From Bacillota bacterium (lineage in GTDB: Bacteria; Bacillota; DTU025; MWDF01), in assembly GCA_029565935.1 (NCBI GenBank), contig JAKQNF010000016.1:180031-219922 (forward strand): DNA of 39,892 bases, given 5' to 3'. The notes under the pieces were generated by a model. The model saw nothing but the letters and a program-made list of their open reading frames with translations. It did no database searches and was not told where the DNA came from. Positions 1,474-33,414 of this stretch are shown here, in pieces (the stretch's first letter is position 1; every line of letters begins with the position of its first letter). A program made the translations under genes and the position numbers.

Positions 1474-2567
1474 GCGGGTTGAAGGGATTGAAGAGCTTGA
1501 ACAACACAGACTCCTACGCATATGCGGTCGGAAGGACCAAGGCCCTTGAGGCGCGGATGCTAGACACGGCCAGGATACAGAGGATCGCCGAAGCCCCGGA
1601 CTACGAGGACGCGGTCAGGTACCTTGCCGATAGCGAGTACTCGCACATGGTCGGGGACATAGGATTCGAGAAGGCCCTCGAGGAGGAGCGCAGGAGGGTG
1701 CACCTTACCGTCGCATCTTACTCCCCCGACCCTTATTTCACGGGGTTGTTCTTCTCGGCGGACGATTTTCTCTACCTTAAGTCGATCATTAAGGGATTCT
1801 TCCTCAAAGGCACGGTCGAATCCGGTATCGGCAGGGAAAAGAAGGCCGGATGGCTGGGGTTGGATGCAATAACGGCGATCGCAGAGGCGGCCTGCAAGGA
1901 CGAGCCGAGGGACGAAGAGGAGATGAAGCTCGACTTTGCGTCGGCGGCGAAGAAGCTGACCGGTGCAGGATATGTCGAGTACGTGCTCCGCGACGCGGCT
2001 TACAAGGCAGTGGCCGCATTCAGGGCGTCGGAGGATTCCCTGGACATTGACGTCATCGTCGACAAGGCCTATTTCGGATATGCCCAGCAGCTAGCATCCT
2101 CCAGGAAGGCGTCATGGCTTTTAAGCTTCATTGCGCTGAAGGTCGACTTGATGAACATCGTCATGCTCATGAGGGCGATCAACACGGGCAAGAGCATCGC
2201 TTTCCTCGAGAAGTCCATGATAGACGGCGGCAACGTCGCCCTTAAGGAGCTGCTGGATGCCTACAGGGAAGGGGCCGCAAGGCTTCAGAAACTCCTGGAA
2301 TCCACCAACTACTGGAAGACCCTGTCCTCGGGATTCGAGATTTGGTCGAAGACTTCCGCGCTGAGGCCGTTCGAGATGGCTGCGGAAGGGCTGCTAGCGT
2401 CGTACGCGAGACAGTCGAAGCAGATGTCCAGCGGCTATGAGCCGGTGGTCGGCTATCTGATAGCGAAGGACACTGAGATAACGATACTAAGGAAGGTACT
2501 AACGGGCAAGTCGAAACGCCTGGCCGTACCGTTCATACGCGAGAGGTTGAGTGACGGCAATGCATAA
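1470..2567 (+). CDS. atpC: V-type ATP synthase subunit C (d-subunit homologue)
   Basis: A 365-aa mostly helical soluble protein matching the size of bacterial subunit C/NtpC. This funnel-shaped part sits on the c-ring and connects it to the central shaft (D and F). The segment NNTDSYAYAVGRTKALEARML near the start is typical of the family, as is the repeated pattern of helices with Asp/Glu-Tyr pairs. The GTG start overlaps the atpE stop as GTGA. In-frame TTG codons at 1479 and 1488 are alternative starts, and no strong ribosome site precedes the GTG, so translation probably relies on coupling. The 3' end overlaps the start of atpF by 17 nt. Confidence 0.9.
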   Translation: MSGLKGLKSLNNTDSYAYAVGRTKALEARMLDTARIQRIAEAPDYEDAVRYLADSEYSHMVGDIGFEKALEEERRRVHLTVASYSPDPYFTGLFFSADDFLYLKSIIKGFFLKGTVESGIGREKKAGWLGLDAITAIAEAACKDEPRDEEEMKLDFASAAKKLTGAGYVEYVLRDAAYKAVAAFRASEDSLDIDVIVDKAYFGYAQQLASSRKASWLLSFIALKVDLMNIVMLMRAINTGKSIAFLEKSMIDGGNVALKELLDAYREGAARLQKLLESTNYWKTLSSGFEIWSKTSALRPFEMAAEGLLASYARQSKQMSSGYEPVVGYLIAKDTEITILRKVLTGKSKRLAVPFIRERLSDGNA

Positions 2568-2892
2568 GATGGCAGTGATAGGCGATGCGTCGTCGGTCGT
2601 GGGCTTCGTGGCGCTGGGCGTCACGGTGTTGACGGCCAAGGATGCCGGGGAGGGTTCGCTGCTCCTCAAGAAGGCGGCGGATGAAGGCTTCGCCGTTATC
2701 TTCGTGACGGAGGGCATAGCCCTGGGGATGATAGACGCGATCACCTCGTACTCCAAGAAACCATTGCCGATAGTGCTAACGATACCTGATAACGAGGGAC
2801 ACACCGGCGCCGCACTAGAGAAACTGAGGCGCACCGTTGAAAAGGCGCTAGGCGCCGATATACTCTTCGGGAAAGAAGGTACTGGCCAGTGA
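2551..2892 (+). CDS. atpF: V-type ATP synthase subunit F
   Basis: A protein of about 110 aa with the small Rossmann-like fold of subunit F, which binds the central shaft subunit D and modulates the head. The N-terminal [18 protein letters not shown] corresponds to the conserved IGD-x-x-x-x-GF opening. [15 protein letters not shown] in the second half matches the usual V-x-IP segment. The start is uncertain: GTG at 2551 lies 4 nt after GAGAGG, while in-frame ATGs at 2560 and 2569 would give the family's usual short N-terminus. It overlaps atpC upstream and atpA downstream (GTGA at 2889-2892), consistent with tight stoichiometric coupling. Confidence 0.9.
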
Positions 2893-4676
2893 GCACGGAT
2901 ATGATAGTTGGCAGGATTATCAAGGTCAGCGGCCCGCTAGTCGTCGCCGAGGGCATGGTGGGCGCTAGGATGTACGAAGTCGTGAGGGTCTCGGACAAGC
3001 GCCTGATAGGCGAGATAATCGAGATGCGAGGCGACAGGGCATCCATACAGGTATATGAGGAGACCTTCGGGCTGGGTCCTGGCGAACCGGTCTATTCGAC
3101 CGGCGAGCCCCTATCCGTTGAGTTGGGGCCTGGGCTCATAGGCTCCATCTATGACGGGATCCAAAGGCCGCTGGACAGGATATATGAACAGGTAGGCGAC
3201 AGGATCAGCCGCGGCGTAGGGGCCGACGGCATAGACCATTCCAAGAAATGGGAATTTGTCCCGACCGTCAAGCCGGATCAGAAGGTCAAGGGCGGCGACA
3301 TAATCGGCACCGTCGACGAGACGAGGATCATCCAGCACAAGGTGATGGTCCCGCACGGGATAAACGGGACTGTAGTGTCGATAGAATCGGGCGAGTTCAC
3401 CGTGACGGACCCCGTCGCCATCGTCAGATCCGACGACGGCACGGAGCACAAGGTGTGCATGATGCAGCGCTGGCCCATCAGGCAGAGCCGTCCTATAGCC
3501 AGGAAGCTGTCGCCCTGCGAGCTTCTGACTACCGGCCAGAGGGTCATAGATACTTTCTTCCCGGTGGCGAAAGGCGGTACCGCGTGCGTGCCCGGACCAT
3601 TCGGTTCCGGCAAGACCGTAGTCCAGCACCAGCTGGCGAAGTGGGCGGACGCGGAGATCATCGTATACGTCGGCTGCGGCGAGCGCGGCAATGAGATGAC
3701 GGACGTCCTGATGGAGTTCCCGCAGCTTAAGGACCCCAAGAGCGGAGAGCCGCTGATGAAGAGGACCGTCCTGATAGCCAACACGTCGGACATGCCGGTC
3801 TCGGCAAGAGAATCGTCCGTCTACACCGGCATAACGATAGCCGAGTACTACAGGGACATGGGATACTCGGTCGCCCTCATGGCGGACTCGACGAGCCGCT
3901 GGGCGGAGGCCCTCAGGGAGATGTCGGGCAGGCTCGAGGAGATGCCGGGCGAGGAAGGATACCCCGCATATCTGGGAAGCCGCGCGGCGGAGTTCTATGA
4001 AAGGGCGGGCAGGGTCACATGTGCCGGCACGGAAGGGCGCGAAGGCGTCCTGACGGTCGTAGGCGCGGTGAGCCCCGCCGGCGGGGACCTGTCGGAACCG
4101 GTCGCGCAGGCGACCCTAAGGATAGTGAAAGTGTTCTGGAGCCTGGAGGCGAGCCTTGCGTACGCGAGGCACTTCCCGGCGATAGGATGGCTCACCAGCT
4201 ATTCCCTGTACGAGGACCAGGTAGCGGGATACATCGAAAAGGAGATAGGCAAAGAATTCCTCGACAATAAGAAGGAAGCCATGAAAATCCTGCAGGAAGA
4301 GGCCGACCTTTCCGAGATCGTAAGGCTAGTCGGTATCGACTCGCTAGGGCCGATGGACCGCATAACGCTCGAGACCGCCAAGACGATAAGGGAAGACTTC
4401 CTGCACCAGAACGCATTCCATGAAGTGGACACATACACTTCCCTTCCGAAGCAGAAGGCGATGCTGTCAGTAATCCTAAGGCTGGACAAGGAGATGAGGA
4501 GGGGCGCCGGCGCGGACATAGAGCTGGACGACCTCCTTGCGATACCAGCCAGGGACAAGGTAGGAAGGATGAAGTACATAGAAGAGAAGCAGATCGGGAA
4601 GATTTCGGCCATCGAAGAGGAGATCACCTCTGAAGTGACAGCCCTGATGGCGGAGGATGGTGGTAAGAGTGCTTAA
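2889..4676 (+). CDS. atpA: V-type ATP synthase subunit A (catalytic)
   Basis: A 595-aa catalytic subunit, normal length for the family (about 580-600 aa). It has a beta-barrel at the N-terminus and the A-subunit-specific bulge at about residues 110-190. The P-loop GPFGSGKT is at 236-243. [10 protein letters not shown], which carries the catalytic Glu, follows. [20 protein letters not shown], the arginine-containing nucleotide-binding stretch, and a C-terminal helical bundle complete it. The serine-containing P-loop GPFGSGKT is the version specific to V/A-type A subunits rather than F1 beta. The GTG start overlaps the atpF stop. An in-frame ATG at 2901 is an alternative. Three copies alternate with subunit B to form the head. 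Confidence 0.97.
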
Positions 4677-6057
4677 GGAATATAAGACCATCAGAGAGAT
4701 CGCCGGTCCGTTGATGCTCGTACAGATGGTCGAAGGAGTGAAGTACGGCGAGCTCGTCGAGATAGCCGGTACGGAAGGGCAGACCAGGCGCGGCAGGGTG
4801 CTGGAAGTATCCGACAACAACGCGCTGGTGCAGCTATTCGAAGGATCCTCGGGTATGGACCTCTCCACGGCCTCCGTGAAGTTCTTGGGCCACGGCATAG
4901 AGCTGGGCGTCTCGATGGACATGCTCGGCAGGGTTTTCACGGGCCTTGGCAATCCGCGCGACGACGGACCGAGGATAATCCCCGAGAAGCGCATGGACAT
5001 CAACGGTTCGCCGGTGAATCCGTTCGCCAGGGACTACCCGTCCGAATTCATCCAGACGGGCATATCGACCATAGACGGCCTGAACACCCTAGTGCGCGGC
5101 CAGAAGCTGCCCATATTCTCCGGATCCGGTCTGCCGCACTCCCAGATGGCGGCCCAGATAGCAAGGCAGGCCAAGGTGTTGGGAAGCGACGAGCGCTTTG
5201 CCGTCGTGTTCGCGGCGATGGGCATCACCTTCGAGGAAGCCGACTTCTTCGTCAAGGACTTCCAGCGCACGGGCGCTATCGAAAGGGCCGTGCTATTCCT
5301 GAACCTCGCGAACGACCCGGCCATCGAAAGGATCGCCACACCCAGGATGGCGCTGACAGCGGCCGAATACCTGGCATACGAGAAGGACATGCACGTCCTT
5401 GTCATACTGACGGACATGACGAACTACTGCGAGGCCTTAAGGGAGATCTCGGCCGCGAGGAAGGAAGTGCCTGGGCGCCGCGGATACCCGGGCTACTTGT
5501 ACACCGACCTTGCCACGATATATGAGAGGGCCGGCAGGATAAAGGGGCGCGAAGGGTCCATAACGCAAATACCCATACTATCGATGCCCGAGGACGATAA
5601 GACCCACCCGATCCCCGACCTTACGGGATACATCACCGAAGGCCAGATCGTACTGTCGCGCGAGCTGCACAAGAAGGGCATATACCCGCCCGTCGACACG
5701 ATGCCCTCGCTGTCCAGGCTCAAGGACAAGGGCATCGGGAAGGGCAAGACGAGAGAGGACCACGCGGATACGCTCAACCAGCTCTATGCGGCGTACGCAA
5801 GGGGCAAGGAGGCGAAGGAGCTGGCGGTTATCCTGGGCGAGGCCGCGCTTTCCCCGACGGACCGCATATTCGCGAAGTTCGCCGACGAGTTCGAGAACAG
5901 GTACGTGGCCCAGGGAGTCGAAGAGGACCGCACGATATTCAGGACCTTGGACCTGGGCTGGGAGCTACTCTCGATGCTGCCGGTAAGGGAGCTGAAGAGG
6001 GTGCGCGAGGAGTTCATTACGGAATACATGCCGGAAATCGGCGGAAGCCAAGACTAG
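4669..6057 (+). CDS. atpB: V-type ATP synthase subunit B (regulatory, non-catalytic)
   Basis: About 462 aa, the usual length. The B subunit alternates with A in the head and lacks a functional P-loop: [20 protein letters not shown] replaces it, as in the family. The start chosen is GTG at 4669, giving a protein beginning [14 protein letters not shown], the typical N-terminus of bacterial homologues. It lies 12 nt after GGAGG (4652-4656). The in-frame ATG at 4657 directly abuts that ribosome site and is less likely. The gene overlaps the end of atpA by 8 nt. [17 protein letters not shown] in the C-terminal half and the final helical domain are well preserved. Confidence 0.96.
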
Positions 6058-6076
6058 CGGTTAGGAGGTAGCATCC

Positions 6077-6718
6077 TTGCAGACCAACGTTAGCCCGACA
6101 AGGATGCAGCTCCAGAAGCTCAAGAGACGCTATGCGGTTGCCAGGAGGGGGCACAAGCTCCTGAAGGACAAACTGGACGAGTTGCTCAAGAACTTCATGG
6201 AGCTGGTCCGGAGGAATAGGGACCTGAGGACTGCCGTAGACGCCGCCCTGGCCGAGGCTTTCACGGGTTTCACGGTAGCCAGGGCGGTGATGTCATCCGC
6301 CGCGGTCGAAGAAGCCCTGATGTTCCCGAAGGAGAGGGCCTCCGTGACGGCATCGTCCAGGAACCTAATGAGCGTGCAGGTACCGACGCTGAAATGGGAC
6401 TTCGAGGAGCAGAAGGACCGCAGCCAGATTTACCCTTATGGGTTCGCGCTCACGAGCGTGGAGCTCGACAGGGCCATAAAGCTGCTCTCGGATACGATGC
6501 CGCTGCTCATAGAGCTCGCGGAAGTGGAGAAGAGCGTGGAGCTCCTGGCCGAGGCCATAGAGGGCACCAGAAGGCGTGTGAACGCGCTGGAGCACATCCT
6601 CATCCCGCAGCTCGAGACTGACATCAAGTACATAAGGATGAAACTGGAAGAAGCCGAGAGGAGCAACCTCACAAGGCTCATGAAAGTGAAGGACATAGTA
6701 AGGGCGAAGAGCATATAG
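6077..6718 (+). CDS. atpD: V-type ATP synthase subunit D (central rotor shaft)
   Basis: A 213-aa protein of two long helices (about residues 5-75 and 125-205) forming the antiparallel coiled coil of the rotor shaft, which turns inside the A3B3 head. The N-terminal PTRMQLQKLKRRYAVARRGH is the family hallmark (PTR-x-x-L ... RGHxLLKDK). A TTG start is used: TTAGGAGGTAG lies just upstream with about 8 nt spacing, and the first ATG (6104) would remove part of the conserved segment. It is the last gene of the operon and is followed by a strong hairpin. Confidence 0.93.
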   Translation: MQTNVSPTRMQLQKLKRRYAVARRGHKLLKDKLDELLKNFMELVRRNRDLRTAVDAALAEAFTGFTVARAVMSSAAVEEALMFPKERASVTASSRNLMSVQVPTLKWDFEEQKDRSQIYPYGFALTSVELDRAIKLLSDTMPLLIELAEVEKSVELLAEAIEGTRRRVNALEHILIPQLETDIKYIRMKLEEAERSNLTRLMKVKDIVRAKSI

Positions 6719-10237: not shown

Positions 10238-11269
10238 TTACATGTTTATGCCGCTCATCGCAACGCTCCTGGTGAACTTGCGCTGGGTGAACAGGAAAGC
10301 GACGATGACGGGCAGGGTAACCAATACGGACGCTGCCATTATCACGGGCCAGTCGGTGCCGGCCTCCCACTTGAGCATGTCCAGACCCACCTGAAGGGTG
10401 AACATCTCCCTTCTTGTGGTGACCATAAGGGGCCAGAGGAACTCGTTCCAGCTCGTCATGAAGCTGAACAGCGCAAGAGTGGCAAGCCCCGGCTTCGCAA
10501 GGGGCACGAAGATCCTGACCAGGACGTCGAACCTCGTACATCCGTCCAGCACGGCGGCCTCTTCGAGCTCCTTCGGGAGCGCCATGAAGAACTGCCTCAT
10601 CATGAAGGCGCCGAATGGGGCGGCCGCGAAGGGCAGCACGAGGGCCGCATAAGTGTCTACGAGGCCGAGCCTGTTTATAAGCATGAACGCAGGGATCAAA
10701 GTCGCCTGCTGGGGTATCAGCATGAGGGACGCGTACGCCCAGAACAGCTTGTCCCGGCCGGGGAAATCGAGCCTGGAGAAGGCGTATCCGGCAAGGCAGC
10801 TGGTGACCAGCTGCAAGGCCGTGACCGATATAGCTACGATAGCGCTGTTGACGAGCATCCTCGCGAACGGCACCCTGGTCCATATGGCCGAGTAGGCCGA
10901 GAAGTCCAGGCCGTAAAGAGTACCTGAAGAGAATGCGAGCACTAGCGCCGTTATCCATAGCGCCACGCTTATCGATCCTGCTAGTCGCTGATGCTTGCCG
11001 GTCTTTCTGAGAACTATCGAGTACATCGTAAGGAAGATTGCCGCGAGTATGACGACCACGAGGGAAGGGTGGGCCCCCAAGGCGGACAGGCTGGCCTTCA
11101 GCTGAGGTACGAAGTTCTGCCCGTAGAACACGTCGCGCCTGCTCTTAAGGGATACAGTCAGCATCCACACGAAGGGCACTACCATGGCGGCACTAGAGAC
11201 GAGAAGCAAGGCTTCCGTCGCCGTGCGGTAAATGGCCTTGGGCCATCTGGCCGTTGACTTCGTGCTCAT
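10238..11269 (-). CDS. Carbohydrate ABC transporter permease, MalG type
   Basis: About 343 aa, longer than the common 270-300 aa. The N-terminal half holds an extra pair of hydrophobic segments (about residues 75-135) before the conserved permease core starting near FARMLVNSAIVAISVTALQL. The EAA loop that docks on the ATPase is EEAAVLDGCTRFDVLVRIFV, followed by PLAKPGLATLALF. The C-terminus QRKFTRSVAMSGIN is a normal MalG-type ending. The ATG overlaps the stop of the partner permease as ATGA and has GAGGAGG upstream. The binding-protein gene begins 20 nt after it. Together with the MalF-type partner it forms the membrane channel of the importer. Confidence 0.92.
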   Translation of the reverse strand: MSTKSTARWPKAIYRTATEALLLVSSAAMVVPFVWMLTVSLKSRRDVFYGQNFVPQLKASLSALGAHPSLVVVILAAIFLTMYSIVLRKTGKHQRLAGSISVALWITALVLAFSSGTLYGLDFSAYSAIWTRVPFARMLVNSAIVAISVTALQLVTSCLAGYAFSRLDFPGRDKLFWAYASLMLIPQQATLIPAFMLINRLGLVDTYAALVLPFAAAPFGAFMMRQFFMALPKELEEAAVLDGCTRFDVLVRIFVPLAKPGLATLALFSFMTSWNEFLWPLMVTTRREMFTLQVGLDMLKWEAGTDWPVIMAASVLVTLPVIVAFLFTQRKFTRSVAMSGINM

Positions 11270-12156
11270 TGCTCGATCCTCCTCATAGTGCGCGCTTCCA
11301 AGACCGCTAGGATGCCCAGTACGAGGAACACCACCCATGCGGCGGCAGAGGCGTAGCCGAGCCTGTATGGCGATTCGAACGCTTGCCGGTAGATGTAGTA
11401 GACGGCGACGAGGGTAGAGTTCGTAGGACCTCCCCCGGTCATTATCCTGACCTGGCTGAAGACCTGGAAAGATCGGATCGTGCTTATGATCATTGTGAAG
11501 GAGAAGATCCTCCCCATGAGGGGTATGGTTATGTACCTCGTGAGCCTCTGACCGTAGGCGCCGTCGAGCGCCGCCGCGTCGTAGATGTCCTTCGGGATGT
11601 CCTGCAGCCCTGCTAGATATATTACCATGCTATATCCCAGGTTCTTCCATATCGCCATGATTATTATCCCGGCCAGGGCCCAGGACGGGTCCGACAGCCA
11701 CGCCGGGCCCGATATACCGATCTTGGCCATTAAAGCGTTGAAGCCGCCGTAGAAAGGGTCGTAGAAGAGGAACCACACCGTCGCCACAGAGGCTGTTGAC
11801 GCCACCACGGGCATGAAGAAGGCCGTTCTGTATATGGGAGTGAGGGCAAGCTTTCTGTTAAGTGCTAAAGCCAGCATGAACGACAAAGCGTTCGCTACCG
11901 GGACAACGGCTACTGTGTAGATCAACGTATTGAGCATGGCCTTCCAGAACGTGGGGTCCTTGAAGAGCTTTACGTAGTTGGAGAGGCCTATGAAAGTTGA
12001 ACCTTGCTTTAGCAGGCCGGCGTCGGTGAAGCTGATGGACAAGGAGTATAAGAGAGGGTACAAGGTGAATACCAGAAAGACGGCGAATGATGGCAGCAAG
12101 GCAAAAAAAGCCGTGCTGTGCTGCTCGTTCTTAAAGACTTTCAGAGTCCTTGCCAT
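11266..12156 (-). CDS. Carbohydrate ABC transporter permease, MalF type
   Basis: About 296 aa with six predicted membrane helices. TAFFALLPSFAVFLVFTLYP opens the first helix, as in MalF/UgpA/LacF-type permeases. The EAA loop is YDAAALDGAYGQRLTRYITI followed by PLMGRIFSF. It is the first gene of the minus-strand sugar-uptake cluster. The ATG at 12156 follows CGGAGGGTCA on the minus strand. Upstream in-frame ATGs at 12180 and 12177 lie in AT-rich DNA without a ribosome site. A regulatory region with palindromes lies directly upstream. Confidence 0.92.
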   Translation of the reverse strand: MARTLKVFKNEQHSTAFFALLPSFAVFLVFTLYPLLYSLSISFTDAGLLKQGSTFIGLSNYVKLFKDPTFWKAMLNTLIYTVAVVPVANALSFMLALALNRKLALTPIYRTAFFMPVVASTASVATVWFLFYDPFYGGFNALMAKIGISGPAWLSDPSWALAGIIIMAIWKNLGYSMVIYLAGLQDIPKDIYDAAALDGAYGQRLTRYITIPLMGRIFSFTMIISTIRSFQVFSQVRIMTGGGPTNSTLVAVYYIYRQAFESPYRLGYASAAAWVVFLVLGILAVLEARTMRRIEQ

Positions 12157-12208
12157 TGACCCTCCGATTTTCAGCATCATATAATTAATTGGCTAGTTAT
12201 AAGCGCAT

Positions 12209-12249
12209 ATGATAATGAAAATATTTATCATCACGATTTTATCATTATA
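12209..12249 (-). promoter_or_regulatory. Candidate operator/promoter of the sugar ABC cluster
   Basis: The AT-rich region before the MalF-type gene contains ATGATAA (12209-12215) inverted with TTATCAT (12225-12231), and a second TTATCAT at 12239-12245. A nested pair, ATAATGA (12212-12218) and TCATTAT (12242-12248), is also exactly inverted. On the minus strand a consensus -10 TATAAT occupies 12249-12244, overlapping these repeats. A binding protein here would cover the -10 and the transcription start. The RpiR-type regulator encoded in the same cluster is the obvious candidate; this is inference. Confidence 0.5.
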
Positions 12250-12402
12250 TACGGCAGTAGTTAAGTAGGAAAAGAGGTATGTGCAGAAACAAGTACAAAA
12301 ATGACGTAGAATGTATGCGCGGATGCTCATTTATTAGGAACTTGTAAAGGCACGCTATTAAGGGTCAAGTCCGGATCAATAAAGAGATTTAGGCTACTTA
12401 AT
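12250..12402. other. AT-rich intergenic stretch, no recognisable gene
   Basis: About 150 bases between the operator-like repeats and the ccm terminator. It is clearly less GC-rich than the flanking genes. Only a 22-codon open frame at 12279-12347 (+) is visible, with AAGAGG almost touching its ATG; I do not consider it supported. No tRNA-like or strong hairpin structure was found. Confidence 0.5.
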
Positions 12403-12440
12403 AAAACGAGGTGCGGTTAAGATTTACCGCACCTCGTTTT
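12403..12440 (-). terminator. Intrinsic terminator of the ccm cluster
   Basis: A perfect 15-bp inverted repeat: arms 12403-12417 and 12426-12440, loop TAAGATTT. Read on the minus strand, downstream of ccmF, the stem ends in TTTTATT. On the plus strand it ends in TTTTT, so it could work in both directions. Confidence 0.85.
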
Positions 12441-12486
12441 TGATGATTCAAAATCGCTGTTGATATGGCATTAAAGAATACTTTCT

Positions 12487-14742
12487 TTATCTAGCTTCCA
12501 TGAACCTCTTTACTAAAGCTATCGTAGTCCCCGCTACGATAAGGCACGCCCCTATCCAGAGCAACGACACGAAAGGCTTGCGGCTCACTTCCACAAGGAA
12601 TGAACCGGCGCTCGTAGTTGCAGCCTCGGAGGCTTTTGCGAGGTTCAGGTAGATCTTTCCCGAGCTTGCGTCGATTCCGCTCATCGAGAGGCTAAACTTT
12701 CCGGAAGAACCATCGATGATAACCGATGAGCCTTCTACGTTAGCCACCGCGACGGACATGAAGATCTTCCCTTCGTACAGAGTCTTCCCTGTCTCCGATA
12801 CCTTAATATCCGCGCCGACCTTCCCCTCGTTCATCCCGCTTATGTCGAAAGCTGAGAAGTCTATGGTTAGCCCTTCGGCGCTCACGCTCCCACCCTTCTT
12901 AACCTCCAACTCAGTGCCTCCCATGGCCGTCATCCCGGTCGTCGATCCGCTGAGCGTAAGCGGGGAGATGTAGATGTCCTCGGTGAGGGTCGAATGGATC
13001 ATCGGATGCCTTAGGGTGTTGTCCATCTTCGTCTTCTGCATATAAGGCTCGCCCTCCTGGAAGAGCTTGCCGTCTTTGTACAGCTTCAGCGGCACGTAGA
13101 CCGTGCTGCCGTCCGTACTGGTCCTAGGTGTCGCCGCCTCGATCGTAAGGCCCGCAGTCTCGGCGGTGCCCCCGATAGGTATCATGACCCTCTCCGTGAC
13201 GGTCCAGCCCCCTGTCGCGATTATCCCCGCGAATACCAGGGCCACCCCGAGGTGCGTAGCATAGCTGCCTATATGCTTCAGTCCGTTCCTTATCGTCCTT
13301 GCGAGCATATACAGGTTCGCTAACAGGCCGAACAGAGATACGAACATGAAGATGAGGTATGCGGCGCCGCTCCCGCCGGCTAAAATCACTGCTATCGTGC
13401 CGATGGCGGCGATTACAAACGATCCTAGGAGGCCGCTACTTGCGGATTTCAGCTCGTCGGTTCCCCATCTAAAGATTGGGAACATGCCCATGATTATCGC
13501 GACCAACACCGCCAGCGGATAATTGGTGATATTGTAGAAGTTCGTGTCAACGGCCTGCGATTCCCCGAATATCCTGGTAAGCAAGGGCGCCGACGTGCCT
13601 AGTAGAGTCACGAGGCCCGTCGCGAGCAGGACGGACGCGCCTATGAATATCCCGAAGTCCCTGCTGGTCCACTTCTCGTAGATCTCCTCGTACTTCCTTG
13701 ATGCCGTCATGTCCTTGAGGCGGATGATGTAAAGCGCCAAGGCCGGAAGCCCGATCACGGCAAGGAACAGGAGAAGGTACGAAGAGATGCCGAGGTCCGC
13801 GAAGGAGTGGACCGAGAAGTCCGAGAGCACCCCGGAGCGGGTGAGGAAAGTACCGTATCCGATGAGCAGATAGGTCACTATGGCAAGGGCGATGTTCGTC
13901 CTCACCATCTTGCCTCTTGCCTTCTGGCTGAGGAAAGTATGCAGAAGTGCCATGCCCGATATCCAAGGCACCAGCGAAGCGTTCTCGACTGGGTCCCAGC
14001 CCCAGTAACCGCCCCAGCCAAGCACCGCGTAAGCCCACCTAGCCCCTATCATGATGCCGGAACCCAGAAGAAGCCAGGCGAGCAGGTTCCACCAAGTGCC
14101 CGCTGCCACCCACCCTTTATAGTCCTTCTTCGTAAGGGCCCCCATCGCGAGAGCATAGGGCGCCGCGATCGCGGCGTACCCGGCGAAGACTATCGGAGGG
14201 TGTATCGCCATCCATGGGTTCTTGAGGAGAGGGTTCAGGCCCATGCCTTCTGATGCCGCCGTATCAAGCATCCTGAACGGGCTCATCCTGAAGGCTATGA
14301 GAAGCAATGCCGCCTGGGCGAGCGCATACCAGGGCATCGCGTATGGTTCCTCGTCCTTCGACGTAAGGGCCAGGAGGCATCCGAACAGCGCCGAGAAGAG
14401 CCCCCAGAGGAGAAGGCTGCCCTCCTGCCCTGCCCAGAATGCCGATACGAGGTATATGCCTTCGAGGCCCCTCTCTGAGTTGCTGACGACGTACTCGAAC
14501 CTGAAATCATGCCTCAGAAGCATCGAAAGAAGCCCTGCCGAGGCTATCACGAGGGCCACGAAGGAGATGGCCATGAGGGCCCTTCCGTAGCCTATGTCTT
14601 TTGCGACGCCCTTCCTCCTGGATGAGGAGAGCTCCAACGGGCCCCTACCGCCTGCGGCCTTGGCCGCCATCGCGTAGAACACGCCCGCGCCAATGGTGGC
14701 GGCCAGCGCCGCAAGGATCATGAAATCCCACGTGTTCATCAT
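12487..14742 (-). CDS. ccmF: Cytochrome c maturation heme lyase subunit CcmF
   Basis: About 751 aa, a large polytopic membrane protein of the heme-handling family. LNPLLKNPWMAIHPP (about residues 169-183) and the tryptophan-rich WWD motif GWGGYWGWDPVENASLVPW (from about 242) are diagnostic for CcmF/NrfE. CcmF receives heme from CcmE and attaches it to apocytochrome c. The C-terminal 200 residues form a long extracytoplasmic beta-rich region followed by a final helix (about 725-745). The ATG overlaps the ccmE stop as ATGA and follows GGAGGAGG. It is the last gene of the cluster and precedes the terminator. The longer open frame to 14778 overlaps ccmE and is not needed. Confidence 0.94.
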   Translation of the reverse strand: MMNTWDFMILAALAATIGAGVFYAMAAKAAGGRGPLELSSSRRKGVAKDIGYGRALMAISFVALVIASAGLLSMLLRHDFRFEYVVSNSERGLEGIYLVSAFWAGQEGSLLLWGLFSALFGCLLALTSKDEEPYAMPWYALAQAALLLIAFRMSPFRMLDTAASEGMGLNPLLKNPWMAIHPPIVFAGYAAIAAPYALAMGALTKKDYKGWVAAGTWWNLLAWLLLGSGIMIGARWAYAVLGWGGYWGWDPVENASLVPWISGMALLHTFLSQKARGKMVRTNIALAIVTYLLIGYGTFLTRSGVLSDFSVHSFADLGISSYLLLFLAVIGLPALALYIIRLKDMTASRKYEEIYEKWTSRDFGIFIGASVLLATGLVTLLGTSAPLLTRIFGESQAVDTNFYNITNYPLAVLVAIIMGMFPIFRWGTDELKSASSGLLGSFVIAAIGTIAVILAGGSGAAYLIFMFVSLFGLLANLYMLARTIRNGLKHIGSYATHLGVALVFAGIIATGGWTVTERVMIPIGGTAETAGLTIEAATPRTSTDGSTVYVPLKLYKDGKLFQEGEPYMQKTKMDNTLRHPMIHSTLTEDIYISPLTLSGSTTGMTAMGGTELEVKKGGSVSAEGLTIDFSAFDISGMNEGKVGADIKVSETGKTLYEGKIFMSVAVANVEGSSVIIDGSSGKFSLSMSGIDASSGKIYLNLAKASEAATTSAGSFLVEVSRKPFVSLLWIGACLIVAGTTIALVKRFMEAR

Positions 14743-28176: not shown

Positions 28177-28200
28177 CCCCGGGGTGCGACCCGGGGTTTT
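28177..28200 (+). terminator. Intrinsic terminator after tldE
   Basis: A GC-rich stem of CCCCGGGGT (28177-28185) against ACCCGGGG (28189-28196), with loop GCG and one bulged G. It is followed directly by TTTT. It ends the tldD-tldE unit just before the SdpI-like gene. Confidence 0.7.
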
Positions 28201-28222
28201 CCGTCTAGGAGGAGGCGATGCG

Positions 28223-28594
28223 ATGAGGATCCTGTACTGCTTCGTCACAGCCGTGTTCGTCCTCGGGTCGGCGATCAGGCAGGCGGTCGCGGCGCCCAAG
28301 GAGCCGACCGCAAGGTCCGGTTATCGAAGCAGCTTCGCCATGATGAACGTCGCGGTCTGGAACGAGGCCCAGATGATCTGGGCCCGCGCGATGCTGGCTG
28401 CCGGGATCGCAGGGCTCGCTGCGAGCACCGTCTGCTACTTCCTCATCGATGGAAGCGCCGGTTACCTCGCGTCGATGCTCATCAGCGCTGCGGCGGCGGC
28501 TTGCACCGTACCTTATACCGAATCGAGGCTGAAGGCGACGTTCGACGAGAAGGGCTTGCGGAAGAGGAAAGAGGGGGCCGGCATAGATGGCTAG
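28223..28594 (+). CDS. SdpI-like small membrane protein
   Basis: About 123 aa with three hydrophobic segments: residues 3-23, 54-76 and 80-97. Between the first and second lies GYRSS (33-37) followed by N-x-x-x-WNEAQ (42-50). This resembles the C-terminal part of SdpI-family proteins (GYRT...S...N...W..AQ), whose founding member gives immunity to the SdpC toxin in Bacillus. Many family members have no known toxin partner, and no toxin gene is seen here. The ATG follows GGAGGAGGCGATGCG; another ATG at 28218 is in a different frame. The 3' end overlaps radA by 8 nt, so the two are co-translated. Assignment is by motif only. Confidence 0.6.
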   Translation: MRILYCFVTAVFVLGSAIRQAVAAPKEPTARSGYRSSFAMMNVAVWNEAQMIWARAMLAAGIAGLAASTVCYFLIDGSAGYLASMLISAAAAACTVPYTESRLKATFDEKGLRKRKEGAGIDG

Positions 28595-29966
28595 GATAAA
28601 GAGCAGGTACGTCTGCCAGCAGTGCGGAGGTGAGTTCCCGACCTGGTACGGAAGGTGTCCGTCGTGCTCGAGCTGGAACAGCGTGGTCGAGGAGGCGGCG
28701 CCCAGGCAGGACGAAAGGCCGACCAGGTCCTCGCGCTTAGGCGTGTCCGCAAGGCAGCCCGTGAGGATAACCGAGGCGGGCATGGCCGAGACCCAAAGGC
28801 AGAAGACTGGGATAGATGAGCTGGACAGGGTCCTCGGAGGAGGGATCGTGCCCGGCTCGGCGGTCCTGGTGTCAGGAGAGCCGGGCATAGGCAAATCGAC
28901 GTTGATGATGCATACGGCCGCGAAGATAGCAGAGGGCGCCCCGGTCCTGTACGTTACGGGAGAAGAATCCGTCGGCCAGGTAGGCATGAGGGCGAGGCGC
29001 CTGAAGGCGGTGAACGACCGGATATTCGTGCTCCCCGAGACCGACATCGTCGAAGTCCTCCAGGCCGCGGGCAGTATAAAACCGGCCGTGCTGATGATCG
29101 ATTCCATACAGACGATGGAGGACGCGTCGCTCGCATCGGCCGCCGGGAGCGTCGGCCAGGTGAGGCAGTGCGCGGCCCTTCTCATAGAGGCGAGCAAGGC
29201 ATCGGACATGGCCACCTTCATGGTCGGGCACGTTACCAAGACGGGAGCTGTGGCCGGCCCTAAGGTCCTGGAGCACATGGTCGACACCGTCCTTCAGTTC
29301 GAAGGCGGCATACACCAGGCCTACAGGGTGGTGAGGACCCTCAAGAACAGGTTCGGGTCCACGGACGAGGTGGGCGTCTTCGAGATGGGAGAGGACGGCC
29401 TTAGGGAAGTGACGAACCCGTCCGAGGCTTTCCTCAGGGAGCGCGTGGCCGGCATGGCCGGGTCGATCGTCGTACCTTGCATGGAAGGCACCAGGCCCTT
29501 CCTCGTCGAGCTGCAGGCGCTCGTCGGATCCCCGGGGGCCAACTTCCCGAGGAGGACGTCGTCAGGGGTGGACCAGGGCAGGGTGGCGATAATGCTCGCT
29601 GTGCTGGGAAGGCGGATAGGGCTGGGAATCGAGGCCAACGACACTTTCATGAACGTGGCCGGGGGCATCTCAGTGGACGAGCCGGCAGCCGACCTTGGCC
29701 TTGCCGTAGCCTTGACGTCGAGTTATAAGAACAGGGCCATAAATCCCAGGACGGCCGTATTCGGGGAGATAGGCCTTTCGGGCGAGCTCAGGTCCGTGCC
29801 GAAGGCGGAGGCGAGGGCCGCGGAGGCGGCAAGGCTCGGATTCGTCAACCTCGTCGTGCCGAAAGCCAACCTCACGAGGATGAAAGCGTCCAGGCAGTTA
29901 AGCGAACAGGCGGAGGTGTTCGGGGCGGGCACGCTCGCCGAAGCCCTCGAATATTTGCTGGGCTGA
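28587..29966 (+). CDS. radA: DNA repair protein RadA
   Basis: A 459-aa RecA-like helicase/branch-migration protein of normal length. The N-terminal zinc finger has C10, C13, C24 and C27 (CQQC ... CPSC). Walker A GEPGIGKST is at 97-105. The RadA-specific KNRFGS motif starts at 253. The C-terminal Lon protease-like domain (from about 290) has SVDEPAADLGLAVAL. RadA extends D-loops during recombination. In Bacillus it binds and inhibits DisA, whose gene is next here. The ATG lies within the end of the SdpI-like gene. Confidence 0.96.
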   Translation: MARIKSRYVCQQCGGEFPTWYGRCPSCSSWNSVVEEAAPRQDERPTRSSRLGVSARQPVRITEAGMAETQRQKTGIDELDRVLGGGIVPGSAVLVSGEPGIGKSTLMMHTAAKIAEGAPVLYVTGEESVGQVGMRARRLKAVNDRIFVLPETDIVEVLQAAGSIKPAVLMIDSIQTMEDASLASAAGSVGQVRQCAALLIEASKASDMATFMVGHVTKTGAVAGPKVLEHMVDTVLQFEGGIHQAYRVVRTLKNRFGSTDEVGVFEMGEDGLREVTNPSEAFLRERVAGMAGSIVVPCMEGTRPFLVELQALVGSPGANFPRRTSSGVDQGRVAIMLAVLGRRIGLGIEANDTFMNVAGGISVDEPAADLGLAVALTSSYKNRAINPRTAVFGEIGLSGELRSVPKAEARAAEAARLGFVNLVVPKANLTRMKASRQLSEQAEVFGAGTLAEALEYLLG

Positions 29967-30042
29967 GCATCCAAGGAAGGAATCTGCCCATACAACTGAG
30001 AAATATATTAAGAAGGCGAGCGTCCCTGCGGAGGTGGGAGAA

Positions 30043-31095
30043 TTGATACCCAAGGCATTAAGGCAGGTAGTTGCCCAGTTGGCACCGGGTACGAACCTGC
30101 ATGAGGGGATAGAGTTCATAATAAGAGCAAGGACCGGCGCGCTGGTCGTCATGGGGGACAGCCCCGAGGTGATGGACCTGTGCAAGGGCGGCTTCAAGAT
30201 CGACGCGCCCTATCTTCCCAACAGCTTCTATGAGCTGGCGAAGATGGACGGGGCCATAATACTGTCGTCGGCGCTGGACAGGATAATGTACGCCAACGTG
30301 CACCTGTTCCCGGACCCGATGCTGCCCACAAACGAGACCGGCACCAGGCACGCGGCGGCCGAAAGGACCGCAAGGGCGACCGGCAAGCCGGTCATTGCGA
30401 TATCCAGCAGGAGGAACGTCATCACCATATACCATAGCAGGCAGAAGTACATCCTCAGGGATGTAGGATACATACTCGACATGGCGAACCAGGCCCTCCA
30501 GACGCTGGCGAAATACAGGGAGGTCCTCGACAAGGCGCTCATCAAGCTCACCGCCTTCGAGTTCGAAGACGACGTGACGGTGGCCGACGTGGCCGAGTGC
30601 GTGAGAAGGTGGGAGCTCACCAGAAGGGTCGGCGAGGAGGTCAACAGCTACATAATAGAGCTGGGCACCGAGGGCAGGCTGATCAGGATGCAGATGCAGG
30701 AGATGGTCAGGGGCCGCCGCGAGGAGACCGAGAACCTTCTGAGGGATTATATGGAGGAAGGCGAGTACAAGCACCCGGAGAAGTTCCTGGCGGCAATAGA
30801 GGAATGGGACCTGGACGATATCATGGAGAACGGCATCATAGAAAGGGCGATAAGAAGACTAGGGGAAGAAGGGCCAGACACCGAGGTCTCATCGCGCGGA
30901 TACCGCACGCTGTCCCAGCTCACATCCCGCATGCCCGAGCAGATAGTGGAGAATCTGATCAAGAGCTTCGGGAACCTGCATAACATATTCGTGGCGAGCG
31001 TCGAGGAGCTCGACGAGGTCGAAGGTATAGGTAAAAGCAGGGCGGTGACCCTTCACGACGGTCTTAGGAGGATCAGGGACCAGGTGAGCAGCTAG
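30043..31095 (+). CDS. disA: Diadenylate cyclase DisA (DNA integrity scanning protein)
   Basis: About 350 aa. The N-terminal DAC domain makes c-di-AMP from two ATP. A helical linker follows, and a C-terminal helix-hairpin-helix domain (LDEVEGIGKSRAVTLHDGL) binds branched DNA. The DGA motif is at D69-A71. The second catalytic motif, normally RHR within GTRHR-x-AER, reads GTRHAAAER here: R102, H103, A104. The final Arg is replaced by Ala. The DNA reads AGG CAC GCG, so this is not a translation slip. Activity may be reduced or the protein may be a sensor; this needs testing. The TTG start at 30043 has GGAGG 8 nt upstream; GTG at 30034 is an alternative. Confidence 0.94.
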   Translation: MIPKALRQVVAQLAPGTNLHEGIEFIIRARTGALVVMGDSPEVMDLCKGGFKIDAPYLPNSFYELAKMDGAIILSSALDRIMYANVHLFPDPMLPTNETGTRHAAAERTARATGKPVIAISSRRNVITIYHSRQKYILRDVGYILDMANQALQTLAKYREVLDKALIKLTAFEFEDDVTVADVAECVRRWELTRRVGEEVNSYIIELGTEGRLIRMQMQEMVRGRREETENLLRDYMEEGEYKHPEKFLAAIEEWDLDDIMENGIIERAIRRLGEEGPDTEVSSRGYRTLSQLTSRMPEQIVENLIKSFGNLHNIFVASVEELDEVEGIGKSRAVTLHDGLRRIRDQVSS

Positions 31096-31098
31096 GCT

Positions 31099-31497
31099 TC
31101 AGCGAAGGCTGAACTTCCCGAGCGCGATGAGCTTTCCGCTCTCCGAGGAGATGATCTCCTCCAGGCTCATGCCCAGCGTATCGCATAGCGCCGTAAGGTA
31201 GAACGCGACCCGCCCGGCCTCCTCCTCGACATGTTCCCTGCAATCGGGGCACAGCTCCCCTTCCAGATGGGTCGTAAGCTGTTCCTTTATGAGGTCGTAC
31301 GGGAGATCTTCCGGGAAGCGCTGTTTCTGGGAGGCGTTTATCTTAAGGCAACCGCATGCGGTGACTGCTTTGGTGATTGCCCTGTTCAGCCTGGCGGACG
31401 ATTCATCAAGTTTGGACATGGTATCGAGTATGCTCTTGTGGCGGAACAGGTTCTGGCGCACGGTATCCTGGAAAGAGACCAGCGTGGGCTTGCTCAT
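31099..31497 (-). CDS. Conserved hypothetical protein with MazG-like helical tail and Cys motifs
   Basis: About 132 aa, convergent with disA (the two stops are 3 nt apart). I recognise the pattern from unnamed clostridial-type proteins but no function. It is predicted all-helical. C48 and C50 (ACGCLKIN) with C83 and C86 (ELCPDC) could bind a metal. The C-terminal part HVEEEAGRVAFYLTALCDTL resembles the metal-binding helices of MazG-type nucleotide hydrolases (E-x-x-E ... D/Y-L), but key Asp residues are missing. The start at 31497 follows AAGGGGGT. The open frame extends to 31560 without a better start. It is the only minus-strand gene between 17469 and 39249. Confidence 0.7.
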   Translation of the reverse strand: MSKPTLVSFQDTVRQNLFRHKSILDTMSKLDESSARLNRAITKAVTACGCLKINASQKQRFPEDLPYDLIKEQLTTHLEGELCPDCREHVEEEAGRVAFYLTALCDTLGMSLEEIISSESGKLIALGKFSLR

Positions 31498-31607
31498 GGA
31501 AGGGCACCCCCTTAAGGCAGCTTCTAGCACCATTATCACGATATAGCCCCGCAATGTCAAACTTCAATGTGTCGATTTTCACTATTCTCTCCGAGGGTGT
31601 TGGTACG

Positions 31608-32705
31608 ATGCAAAGGCTGTTGAAGGTAATGTTAATAGTGATCAGCTCGGTGGCCGGATACCTGGGATATCTGCTCATGACGTCGGGTAATTCGCTGCTG
31701 GCGAACCTTGATTCTGCCGACAGGTACAACCTCATGTTGGTCATGGTCCTGTGCGGGTCCCTGGTCGGCATAATACTCGCCATCCTCGGCTCCGGGCTGG
31801 TGAAGGGCCTCAGCCGCAGGATCCACGACGCGATGAGCGCAATCAGCCTGTACGATTTCTTCATAGCGGCCATTGGCGCGATACTCGGGCTTGTGGTGGC
31901 CAACCTGGTCGCGCTTCCCGTAAGCGACATACCCTTCGCCGGCAGCTACATCTCGCTGGCACTTAACATGCTTTCAGGCCTTCTTGGCATGATCATAGCG
32001 GTTTCTTTAAAGGACGACATAAGCGAGAGGATGAGGGGCACCATATCCGGCGGCGGGCCGGGCAAGTACGGCGGCTACAGAGCGTACTCGAGGGTAGGGT
32101 CTAAGATACTGGACACGAGCAGCCTGATAGACGGAAGGGTGCTGGACATCGCTAGGAGCGGCTTCCTGGACGGTACCCTGGTGGTGCCGGAGTTCGTCCT
32201 GAACGAGCTGCAGAAGGTGGCGGACAGCTCGGACCAGTTCAAGAGGGCCCGCGGAAGGCGGGGCCTGGATGTGCTGAAGAGGATGCAGGACGACGCCTCC
32301 ATCGACCTTAGGATCATGCCGTTCCCGCAGGAGGATCAGGAGACGGACGCCAGCCTGATCAAGATGTCAAGGAGCCTTTCCGCCGCCGTCGTGACTACGG
32401 ACTACAACCTCAACAAGGCGGCCACGCTGCAAGGAAGCCTGGTGCTCAACGTGAACGAGCTGTCCAACGCGGTGAAGCCCATGGTGCTGCCCGGCGAAGA
32501 CATGAAGGTGATGGTGATCAAGGAGGGCAAGGAACACGGGCAGGGCGTGGGCTACCTCGACGACGGGACCATGATAGTCGTGGAGGGCGCGAAGAAGATG
32601 ATAGGCCGTGAGCTGTCGGTGACCGTCACGAGTGTGCTCCAGACGTCGGCCGGCAGGATGATATTCACAAAACTAAAGGAAGGAATGAGTTCGAATGGAT
32701 CTTGA
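31608..32705 (+). CDS. PIN/TRAM domain membrane protein (YacL type)
   Basis: About 365 aa. Four membrane helices occupy the first 140 residues (MLIVISSVAGYLGYLLM, VMVLCGSLVGIILAIL and two more). A PIN nuclease domain follows, opening KILDTSSLIDGRVLDIARSG with its first acidic residue, and continuing with VVPEFVLNELQKVAD and VVTTDYNLN, which carry further acidic residues. A TRAM RNA-binding domain ends the protein (about 305-360). This is the YacL/PIN-TRAM architecture found between disA and ispD in Bacillus. The ATG follows GAGGGTGTTGGTACG. A longer open frame to 31377 overlaps the antisense gene and is rejected. It overlaps ispD by 11 nt. Confidence 0.88.
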   Translation: MQRLLKVMLIVISSVAGYLGYLLMTSGNSLLANLDSADRYNLMLVMVLCGSLVGIILAILGSGLVKGLSRRIHDAMSAISLYDFFIAAIGAILGLVVANLVALPVSDIPFAGSYISLALNMLSGLLGMIIAVSLKDDISERMRGTISGGGPGKYGGYRAYSRVGSKILDTSSLIDGRVLDIARSGFLDGTLVVPEFVLNELQKVADSSDQFKRARGRRGLDVLKRMQDDASIDLRIMPFPQEDQETDASLIKMSRSLSAAVVTTDYNLNKAATLQGSLVLNVNELSNAVKPMVLPGEDMKVMVIKEGKEHGQGVGYLDDGTMIVVEGAKKMIGRELSVTVTSVLQTSAGRMIFTKLKEGMSSNGS

Positions 32706-33414
32706 AACCCGAAGGGAAGGCCTCAAGTGCGCAGCCATCGTCGTTGCGGGAGGTTCGGGGCTGAGGATGGGCTCCAACATCCCGAAGCAGTTCCTGAAGA
32801 TAGCGGGCAAGCCGATAATGTGGTGGACGCTGAGGAAGTTGTCGGAGAGCGGCCTTTTCGAGGAGATCGTGCTGGTGCTCCCTCAAGGGTGGCTTTCCAG
32901 GGCGGAGGAACTGCTTGACGGGCTGGCTCTTGGGGCCAGGGTGGCGGAAGGAGGGCCGAGAAGGCAGATCTCCGTCCTGAACGGCCTTATGCAGACGGAC
33001 GACGACGTCGACATAGTCCTCGTGCACGACGCGGTCAGGCCCTTCGTGAGGAGGAAGACGCTGTCGGACGTCATAGATGCGGCGGCGAGGTTCGGAGCCG
33101 CTACCGCAGCCATGCCAGCAAAGGAGACGATCGGCGTCTCCAACGACGGCGAGGTCTTGAACGAAGTGCCCGAAAGGTCAAGGCTATGGCACGTGCAGAC
33201 GCCGCAGGCCTTCAGGAGGGACATACTCCTCGAGGCACACAAGGAAGGGCTCGAGGCGACGACTTACGCCACTGACGACTGCCAGCTGGTCATGAGGCGC
33301 GGCATAAGGCCGGCCATCGTGCACGGGTCCGAGGACAACCTGAAGATCACGAGCCCGATGGACATGATGATAGCCGAGCAGATCGCCCTTAGGAGGGAGA
33401 ATGAGGATGAGTAA
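32695..33414 (+). CDS. ispD: 2-C-methyl-D-erythritol 4-phosphate cytidylyltransferase
   Basis: A 239-aa enzyme of the MEP isoprenoid pathway that forms CDP-ME from MEP and CTP. The nucleotide-binding loop is GGSGLRMGSNIPKQF (the family pattern G-x-G-x-R-x-G...PKQ). VLVHDAVRPFV and RLWHVQTPQAFRRD match the other conserved blocks. ATDDCQLVMRRG is the usual DD motif near the C-terminus. The start overlaps the PIN/TRAM gene and the end overlaps ispF, so the three are translationally coupled. Confidence 0.95.
   Translation: MDLETRREGLKCAAIVVAGGSGLRMGSNIPKQFLKIAGKPIMWWTLRKLSESGLFEEIVLVLPQGWLSRAEELLDGLALGARVAEGGPRRQISVLNGLMQTDDDVDIVLVHDAVRPFVRRKTLSDVIDAAARFGAATAAMPAKETIGVSNDGEVLNEVPERSRLWHVQTPQAFRRDILLEAHKEGLEATTYATDDCQLVMRRGIRPAIVHGSEDNLKITSPMDMMIAEQIALRRENEDE

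Follow-up and report, generated by a model that had tools for sequence, protein, structure and literature searches.

A DisA-type protein without the third arginine of its RHR motif, probably a functional enzyme and the sole diadenylate cyclase detected in a genus of Bacillota

The question raised by this locus is whether a diadenylate cyclase can go on making c-di-AMP once the third residue of its RHR motif has been lost. In published work, as far as it was accessible, RHR serves as a signature of these enzymes and has mostly been mutated as a block (Rv3586, CdaS, CdaM). In the disA gene described here, which lies in a window of 39,892 nucleotides (the whole stretch of DNA that was analysed), the canonical GTRHRxAER reads GTRHAAAER. 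A sequence-only reading of the window had noticed this alanine and an intact DGA motif, both of which are confirmed by translation, and had suggested that c-di-AMP synthesis may be weakened or tuned as a result. It had placed the motif at 30343-30369, but those bases encode TRHAAAERT, one codon late. The evidence set out below makes it probable, at the level of sequence comparison, that the protein is a functional diadenylate cyclase without the third arginine, possibly with altered kinetics.

The gene carries the DisA domain set of DAC, DisA-linker and helix-hairpin-helix (Table 1), and its alignments to DisA structures span residues 3-349, with GTRHR in the structures standing against GTRHA in the query. 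Its nearest named relatives, at 95% and 86% identity, come from metagenome assemblies of Bacillota. The DisA equivalog score, together with the DAC and DisA-linker matches, rules out a chance open reading frame, and a sequencing error was discarded as unlikely because three separate genomes from this genus carry the identical alanine. The DGA motif is complete and RHR is not (RHA), and since the third arginine is missing the protein is not classed as a canonical RHR enzyme. The program-made list of open reading frames starts the gene at GTG 30034 (30034-31095); TTG 30043 is the likelier start, because GGAGGT lies at 30030-30035, 7 bases ahead of it, and because a sister genome of the genus (G001) has a methionine at the aligned codon. 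Residue numbers are counted here from GTG 30034 (107, 115, 196), so that Ala107 is Ala104 from TTG 30043, the number given to it in the sequence-only reading.

Table 1. Features of the disA locus in the window (residues counted from GTG 30034)
Feature	Position	Strand	Residues	Evidence
Small SdpI/YfhL-family protein, immediately upstream of radA	28184-28594			PF13630
radA/sms, upstream neighbour of disA	28587-29966	+		TIGR00416, 541.8 bits (cut-off 403.05)
disA, DisA-type diadenylate cyclase	30043-31095	+		NF010009, 430.4 bits (cut-off 201); phmmer 7y0d 4e-77, 3c1y 2e-73
DAC domain (PF02457)	30103-30438	+	24-135	E 4e-24, 84.9 bits (cut-off 27)
DGA motif, intact	30247-30255	+	72-74	Translation and alignment
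GTRHAAAER (canonical GTRHRxAER)	30340-30366	+		Translation and alignment
GCG codon	30352-30354	+	Ala107 (Ala104 from TTG)	Arg in 84 of 101 distinct DisA sequences
GCG codon	30376-30378	+	Ala115	Gln in 82 of 84 RHR-type DisA; Met in 8 of 8 RHS sequences
DisA-linker domain (PF10635)	30454-30852	+	141-273	E 1.8e-41
C-terminal helix-hairpin-helix	30976-31044	+	315-337	Pfam score under curated cut-off; alignments to DisA structures extend through it
153-aa open reading frame	31099-31560	opposite		No Pfam match
PIN-TRAM protein, downstream of disA	31377-32705	+		PF01938 2.2e-6; PF01850 5e-4 (under its cut-off)
ispD, after the PIN-TRAM gene	32695-33414			IspD 2.6e-57

On its upstream side disA adjoins radA/sms, an arrangement that is usual for DisA and not defining. 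The PIN-TRAM protein on the other side is one that we take to be YacL-like; its reading frame overlaps that of the 153-aa product on the opposite strand, and its true start probably lies further downstream than 31377.

As to whether the alanine is fixed in the lineage, which the sequence-only reading had proposed to settle by alignment, it was found in all three sampled genomes of the genus (G000, the source genome, to G002) and serine in all nine other sampled genomes of the order (G003-G011), arginine being absent from 12 of 12. Had alanine proved common at this site in DisA, the suggested weakening would have lost its footing; it was seen solely in this genus, both by pattern over 398 genomes and among 101 distinct DisA sequences. 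These 101 were obtained from 130 matched loci by asking for at least 250 covered query residues and merging identical sequences, which excluded the shorter L197 and L082 (the latter, from G010, reads serine), and the third RHR residue in them is arginine in 84, serine in eight, lysine in four, alanine in three, and threonine and isoleucine in one each. They form a non-random sample, because they come from relatives of the query and from two pattern searches, one of which was aimed at non-arginine residues, and the pairs L003/L004 and L045/L046, with the same identities and residues, probably represent the same genomes. Strong conservation of the arginine is counted against a working enzyme.

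A less biased sample is given by 398 genomes of the phylum, 12 in the order and 386 outside it, which were searched with the pattern E-[TS]-G-x-R-H-(codon with second base not G)-x-A-E-R for non-arginine residues and with MGN in that codon for arginine (MGN also takes the serine codons AGC and AGT). The first pattern matched 10 genomes, four in the order (three alanine, one serine) and six outside (four lysine, one threonine, one isoleucine), and all six outside matches are DisA. The second matched 175 genomes, of which at most 167 have arginine, eight among the matches listed being order members with serine. Of the 173 genomes matched outside the order, about 6 thus have a residue other than arginine; the remaining 213 of the 386 fit neither pattern and are uncounted. 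In a maximum-likelihood tree the alanine and serine sequences form a single clade (support 100/99), and four changes between arginine and another residue are required: in the order, in a Lys/Thr clade, and in one lysine and one isoleucine sequence. The arginine was most likely lost once, to judge from this tree, before the sampled genomes of the order diverged, with serine now in families f2 and f3 and alanine in the genus. The branch leading to the RHA clade is long (0.75), which also counts against a working enzyme.

When the 11 sequences that represent the order in the tree set (three alanine, eight serine) were compared with the 84 arginine-type sequences, three positions were conserved in at least 90% of the latter and changed in all 11 of the former: 107 itself, Gln115 and Val196. 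Val196 (81 of 84) belongs to the linker, and Gln115, eight residues downstream of 107 and replaced by alanine in three and methionine in eight order sequences, is the sole other position of the DAC domain. Position 115 is thereby a candidate for a compensating or interface change accompanying that at 107. Both near-invariant DAC positions being changed in all 11 sequences would suit an enzyme that is active and tuned, with lower turnover, a different metal or ATP dependence or a different inhibition by branched DNA; in the same vein, S222A in Leptospira CdaA lowers conversion (47.5%) and does not abolish it (PMC12974146). All six DisA sequences with lysine, threonine or isoleucine nevertheless keep Gln115, so coupling between the two positions is not obligatory, and this tuning, which would be a sub-case of the functional enzyme, is regarded as possible but rather doubtful.

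What is known of the motif from mutants comes, in the accessible text of the reports, from replacing all of it or its first residue. Activity was abolished together with ATP binding when RHR was changed to AAA in Rv3586 (PMC3328451), c-di-AMP formation was abolished by either RHR to AAA or DGA to AAA in CdaS (PMC4568413), and activity was lost in the R141A/H142A/R143A triple mutant of M. bovis CdaM (PMC13022847). Activity was likewise abolished in Leptospira CdaA by D172A and by R203A, the first arginine of GXRHRXA (PMC12974146), and MtbDisA with D72A/G73A made no c-di-AMP (PMC3900455). DGA and RHR are described as nucleotide contacts, with the third residue not singled out, in the accessible parts of two of these reports (PMC3328451, PMC3900455), a description that weighs against a working RHA enzyme; those of PMC8573169 and PMC10167629 hold nothing on the third arginine. 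A literature search that left most subscription journals outside recognised no mutant of the third arginine only and no natural RHA or RHS DisA, and within the literature searched for them neither R205A, R110A or R107A nor an assay of any of the 17 non-arginine DisA sequences was found. The two residues with single-mutant evidence in Leptospira CdaA, the aspartate of DGA and the first arginine of RHR, are intact in the present protein, and so is the histidine. The sequence-only reading was thus right that the arginine is missing and that its replacement is rare, and its step from there to weakened synthesis finds no support in these mutants, in which the whole of RHR or its first arginine had been changed.

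The whole-motif mutant of Rv3586 does lend itself to a rival explanation, namely that loss of the arginine abolished or nearly abolished synthesis, was tolerated while CdaA was present, and left a decommissioned protein that is kept for DNA scanning and the regulation of RadA/RecA, possibly still binding ATP, in a genus that makes no c-di-AMP. The position of disA next to radA would agree with this, but the unchanged DGA and RH of the protein would not.

The distribution of other cyclases bears on both explanations. A search with PF02457 found a single DAC match in the source genome (98.16% complete), with no second one, and one DAC domain apiece in the other two genomes of the genus (89% and 77% complete). 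CdaA, which the sequence-only reading had proposed to look for, was found in none of the three, and RHA-DisA is therefore the sole diadenylate cyclase detected in the genus. A second DAC of the CdaA type is present in seven of the nine other genomes of the order, the remaining two having a completeness of 87% and 72%; it is also present in five of the six non-arginine genomes outside the order, all five reading GTRHRA. That CdaA accompanies seven of nine RHS enzymes and five of six variants elsewhere is what would be expected if loss of the arginine costs activity, and it is counted against a working DisA, the RHS cases also in favour of decommissioning. On the other side stands G207 (loci L212/L167), which belongs to another family and is 100% complete, and in which, independently, a threonine variant (RHT) is the only DAC match; the pattern match of G341, from the same family as G207, reads RHR. 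YbbR was considered as a synteny marker of a lost cdaA and proved uninformative, its Pfam model matching just 4 of the 12 genomes from the order.

It could also be that c-di-AMP is made in the genus by an unrecognised second cyclase, or by a CdaA missed in assembly gaps, leaving DisA free to drift. The three genomes are indeed drafts (98, 89 and 77% complete, in 36, about 100 and about 150 contigs), but the best of them is nearly complete, the search that found no second DAC in any of the three did find CdaA in seven of nine sister genomes, and disA is under purifying selection, which together make this very improbable.

Within the genus, dN/dS for disA is 0.055 and 0.079, which with the open frame rules out a pseudogene. 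Pairwise values were 0.080, 0.103 and 0.088 for the DAC part, 0.043, 0.036 and 0.092 for the linker, and 0.037 and 0.063 for the helix-hairpin-helix (the third not being computable), so that DAC exceeds linker in two of three comparisons. The most reliable pair is G000-G001, because dS is near saturation against G002, and the looser DAC part in that pair is counted against a working enzyme, with constraint still strong. The DAC part thus remains under purifying selection, which speaks against decommissioning, and purifying selection acts as well on two further genes of the c-di-AMP circuit, a BusR-like gene and the HD domain of PgpH (dN/dS about 0.03-0.1 for all three).

The sequence-only reading had also proposed to look for phosphodiesterases and receptors, and a PgpH-type phosphodiesterase and a candidate receptor were found. 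All 12 sampled genomes of the order have a 7TM-HD protein (PF07698), and the copy in the source genome has the PgpH domain set of 7TMR-HDED, 7TM and HD (PF07697, PF07698, PF01966) and can be aligned for 222 aa to 4s1b, the HD structure from Listeria (5.4e-61); each of the three copies of the genus has its HD motifs intact (YHHS, HDCGK, HHG). Two comparisons within the genus gave a dN/dS of 0.031 and 0.062 for the HD domain, against 0.076 and 0.187 upstream of it, and this weaker constraint outside HD is another point against a working DisA. Among the four DHHA1 matches of the source genome (alanyl-tRNA synthetase, RecJ, an AlaX-like protein and an NrnA-like DHH-DHHA1 protein under the NCBIfam cut-off) there is no GdpP.

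The candidate receptor, present in all three genomes of the genus (dN/dS 0.038 and 0.074), combines a GntR wHTH with RCK_C and aligns over most of its length with the BusR structures 7wjg (1.7e-33) and 7b5t (6.7e-32). In the source genome it lies just upstream of three transporter genes of the glycine-betaine type, which encode an OpuAC-type binding protein, the permease and a CBS-bearing ATPase, the regulator and ABC operon occupying 2397-6319 of locus L218 (contig C32, about 10396-14318). The CBS domain is, like RCK_C, linked to c-di-AMP. RCK_C subunits of the potassium-transport type are present as well. Characterised BusR represses busA with c-di-AMP bound, and RCK_C is described as a c-di-AMP-binding domain, in the accessible text of PMC8517857. 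Compared with that BusR, the homologue keeps the pocket residues Trp159, Ala164, Thr165, Ile166, Gly180 and Pro181, and is changed at both residues of the polar rim (Asn157, His160) and at pocket-lining Ile153, Gly154 and Val158. Binding of c-di-AMP by the homologue is possible on this comparison, and unsure because of these five changes, which are counted against a working DisA and, as regards the polar rim, in favour of decommissioning. The ydaO/c-di-AMP riboswitch is absent from all three genus genomes, which is scored the same way on both counts; its absence is not diagnostic, because it is also missing from three of the nine sister genomes.

The case for a working enzyme was argued from the loss of the arginine throughout the order (12 of 12 genomes), from the purifying selection, and from a genus in which no other DAC was detected yet PgpH and the BusR-like regulator are kept; the same facts run against weakened synthesis. 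Were the substitution lethal to catalysis, c-di-AMP signalling would have ceased once CdaA was lost, and it would be hard to explain why the catalytic domain of PgpH and the BusR-like gene are conserved, both under strong purifying selection. Decommissioning is considered unlikely.

If RHA-DisA is functional, the ancestor of the sampled order genomes would have lost the third arginine, and the genus would then have done without CdaA and come to rely on this enzyme; that the arginine went before CdaA we infer from their distribution. RHA-DisA would still condense two ATP into c-di-AMP, the third arginine being a supporting and non-essential residue that perhaps affects kinetics or the protomer interface, with Gln115 to Ala or Met as its candidate companion change. 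PgpH would degrade the product, and BusR, and perhaps the RCK_C potassium-transport subunits, would read it, in the former case for glycine-betaine uptake. A bolder form of this can be offered only tentatively, with rather less than even confidence: that the order runs its DisA with an RH[A/S] site and a replaced Gln115, and that in the genus, where the RHA enzyme would be the sole source of c-di-AMP, the third arginine is dispensable in an alternative arrangement of the DAC active site, perhaps under altered control. A lineage whose sole detected cyclase lacks this residue, and which has a phosphodiesterase and a candidate receptor, amounts to a natural experiment on the residues that are needed, and cautions that the motif alone is insufficient for calling such DAC proteins dead.

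Set beside the known DisA cyclases (PDB 3c1y, 7y0d and 9y4s; M. tuberculosis Rv3586), the protein shares with them a near full-length alignment over DAC, linker and helix-hairpin-helix, the DGA motif, and the first arginine and the histidine of RHR, with radA adjoining disA in the window, and it differs in having alanine both for the third arginine and for Gln115. The relatives of the order with RHS DisA fall in the same clade, share the loss of the arginine and have Gln115 replaced too, but carry serine where alanine is found here and, in all eight long sequences, methionine in place of alanine at 115, and in seven of nine genomes they have CdaA besides. That CdaA of the sister genera has the DAC domain, DGA and GTRH in common with the DisA of the genus, and in all seven cases it has kept GTRHR, whereas the genus, in which CdaA was not detected, has GTRHA in its DisA.
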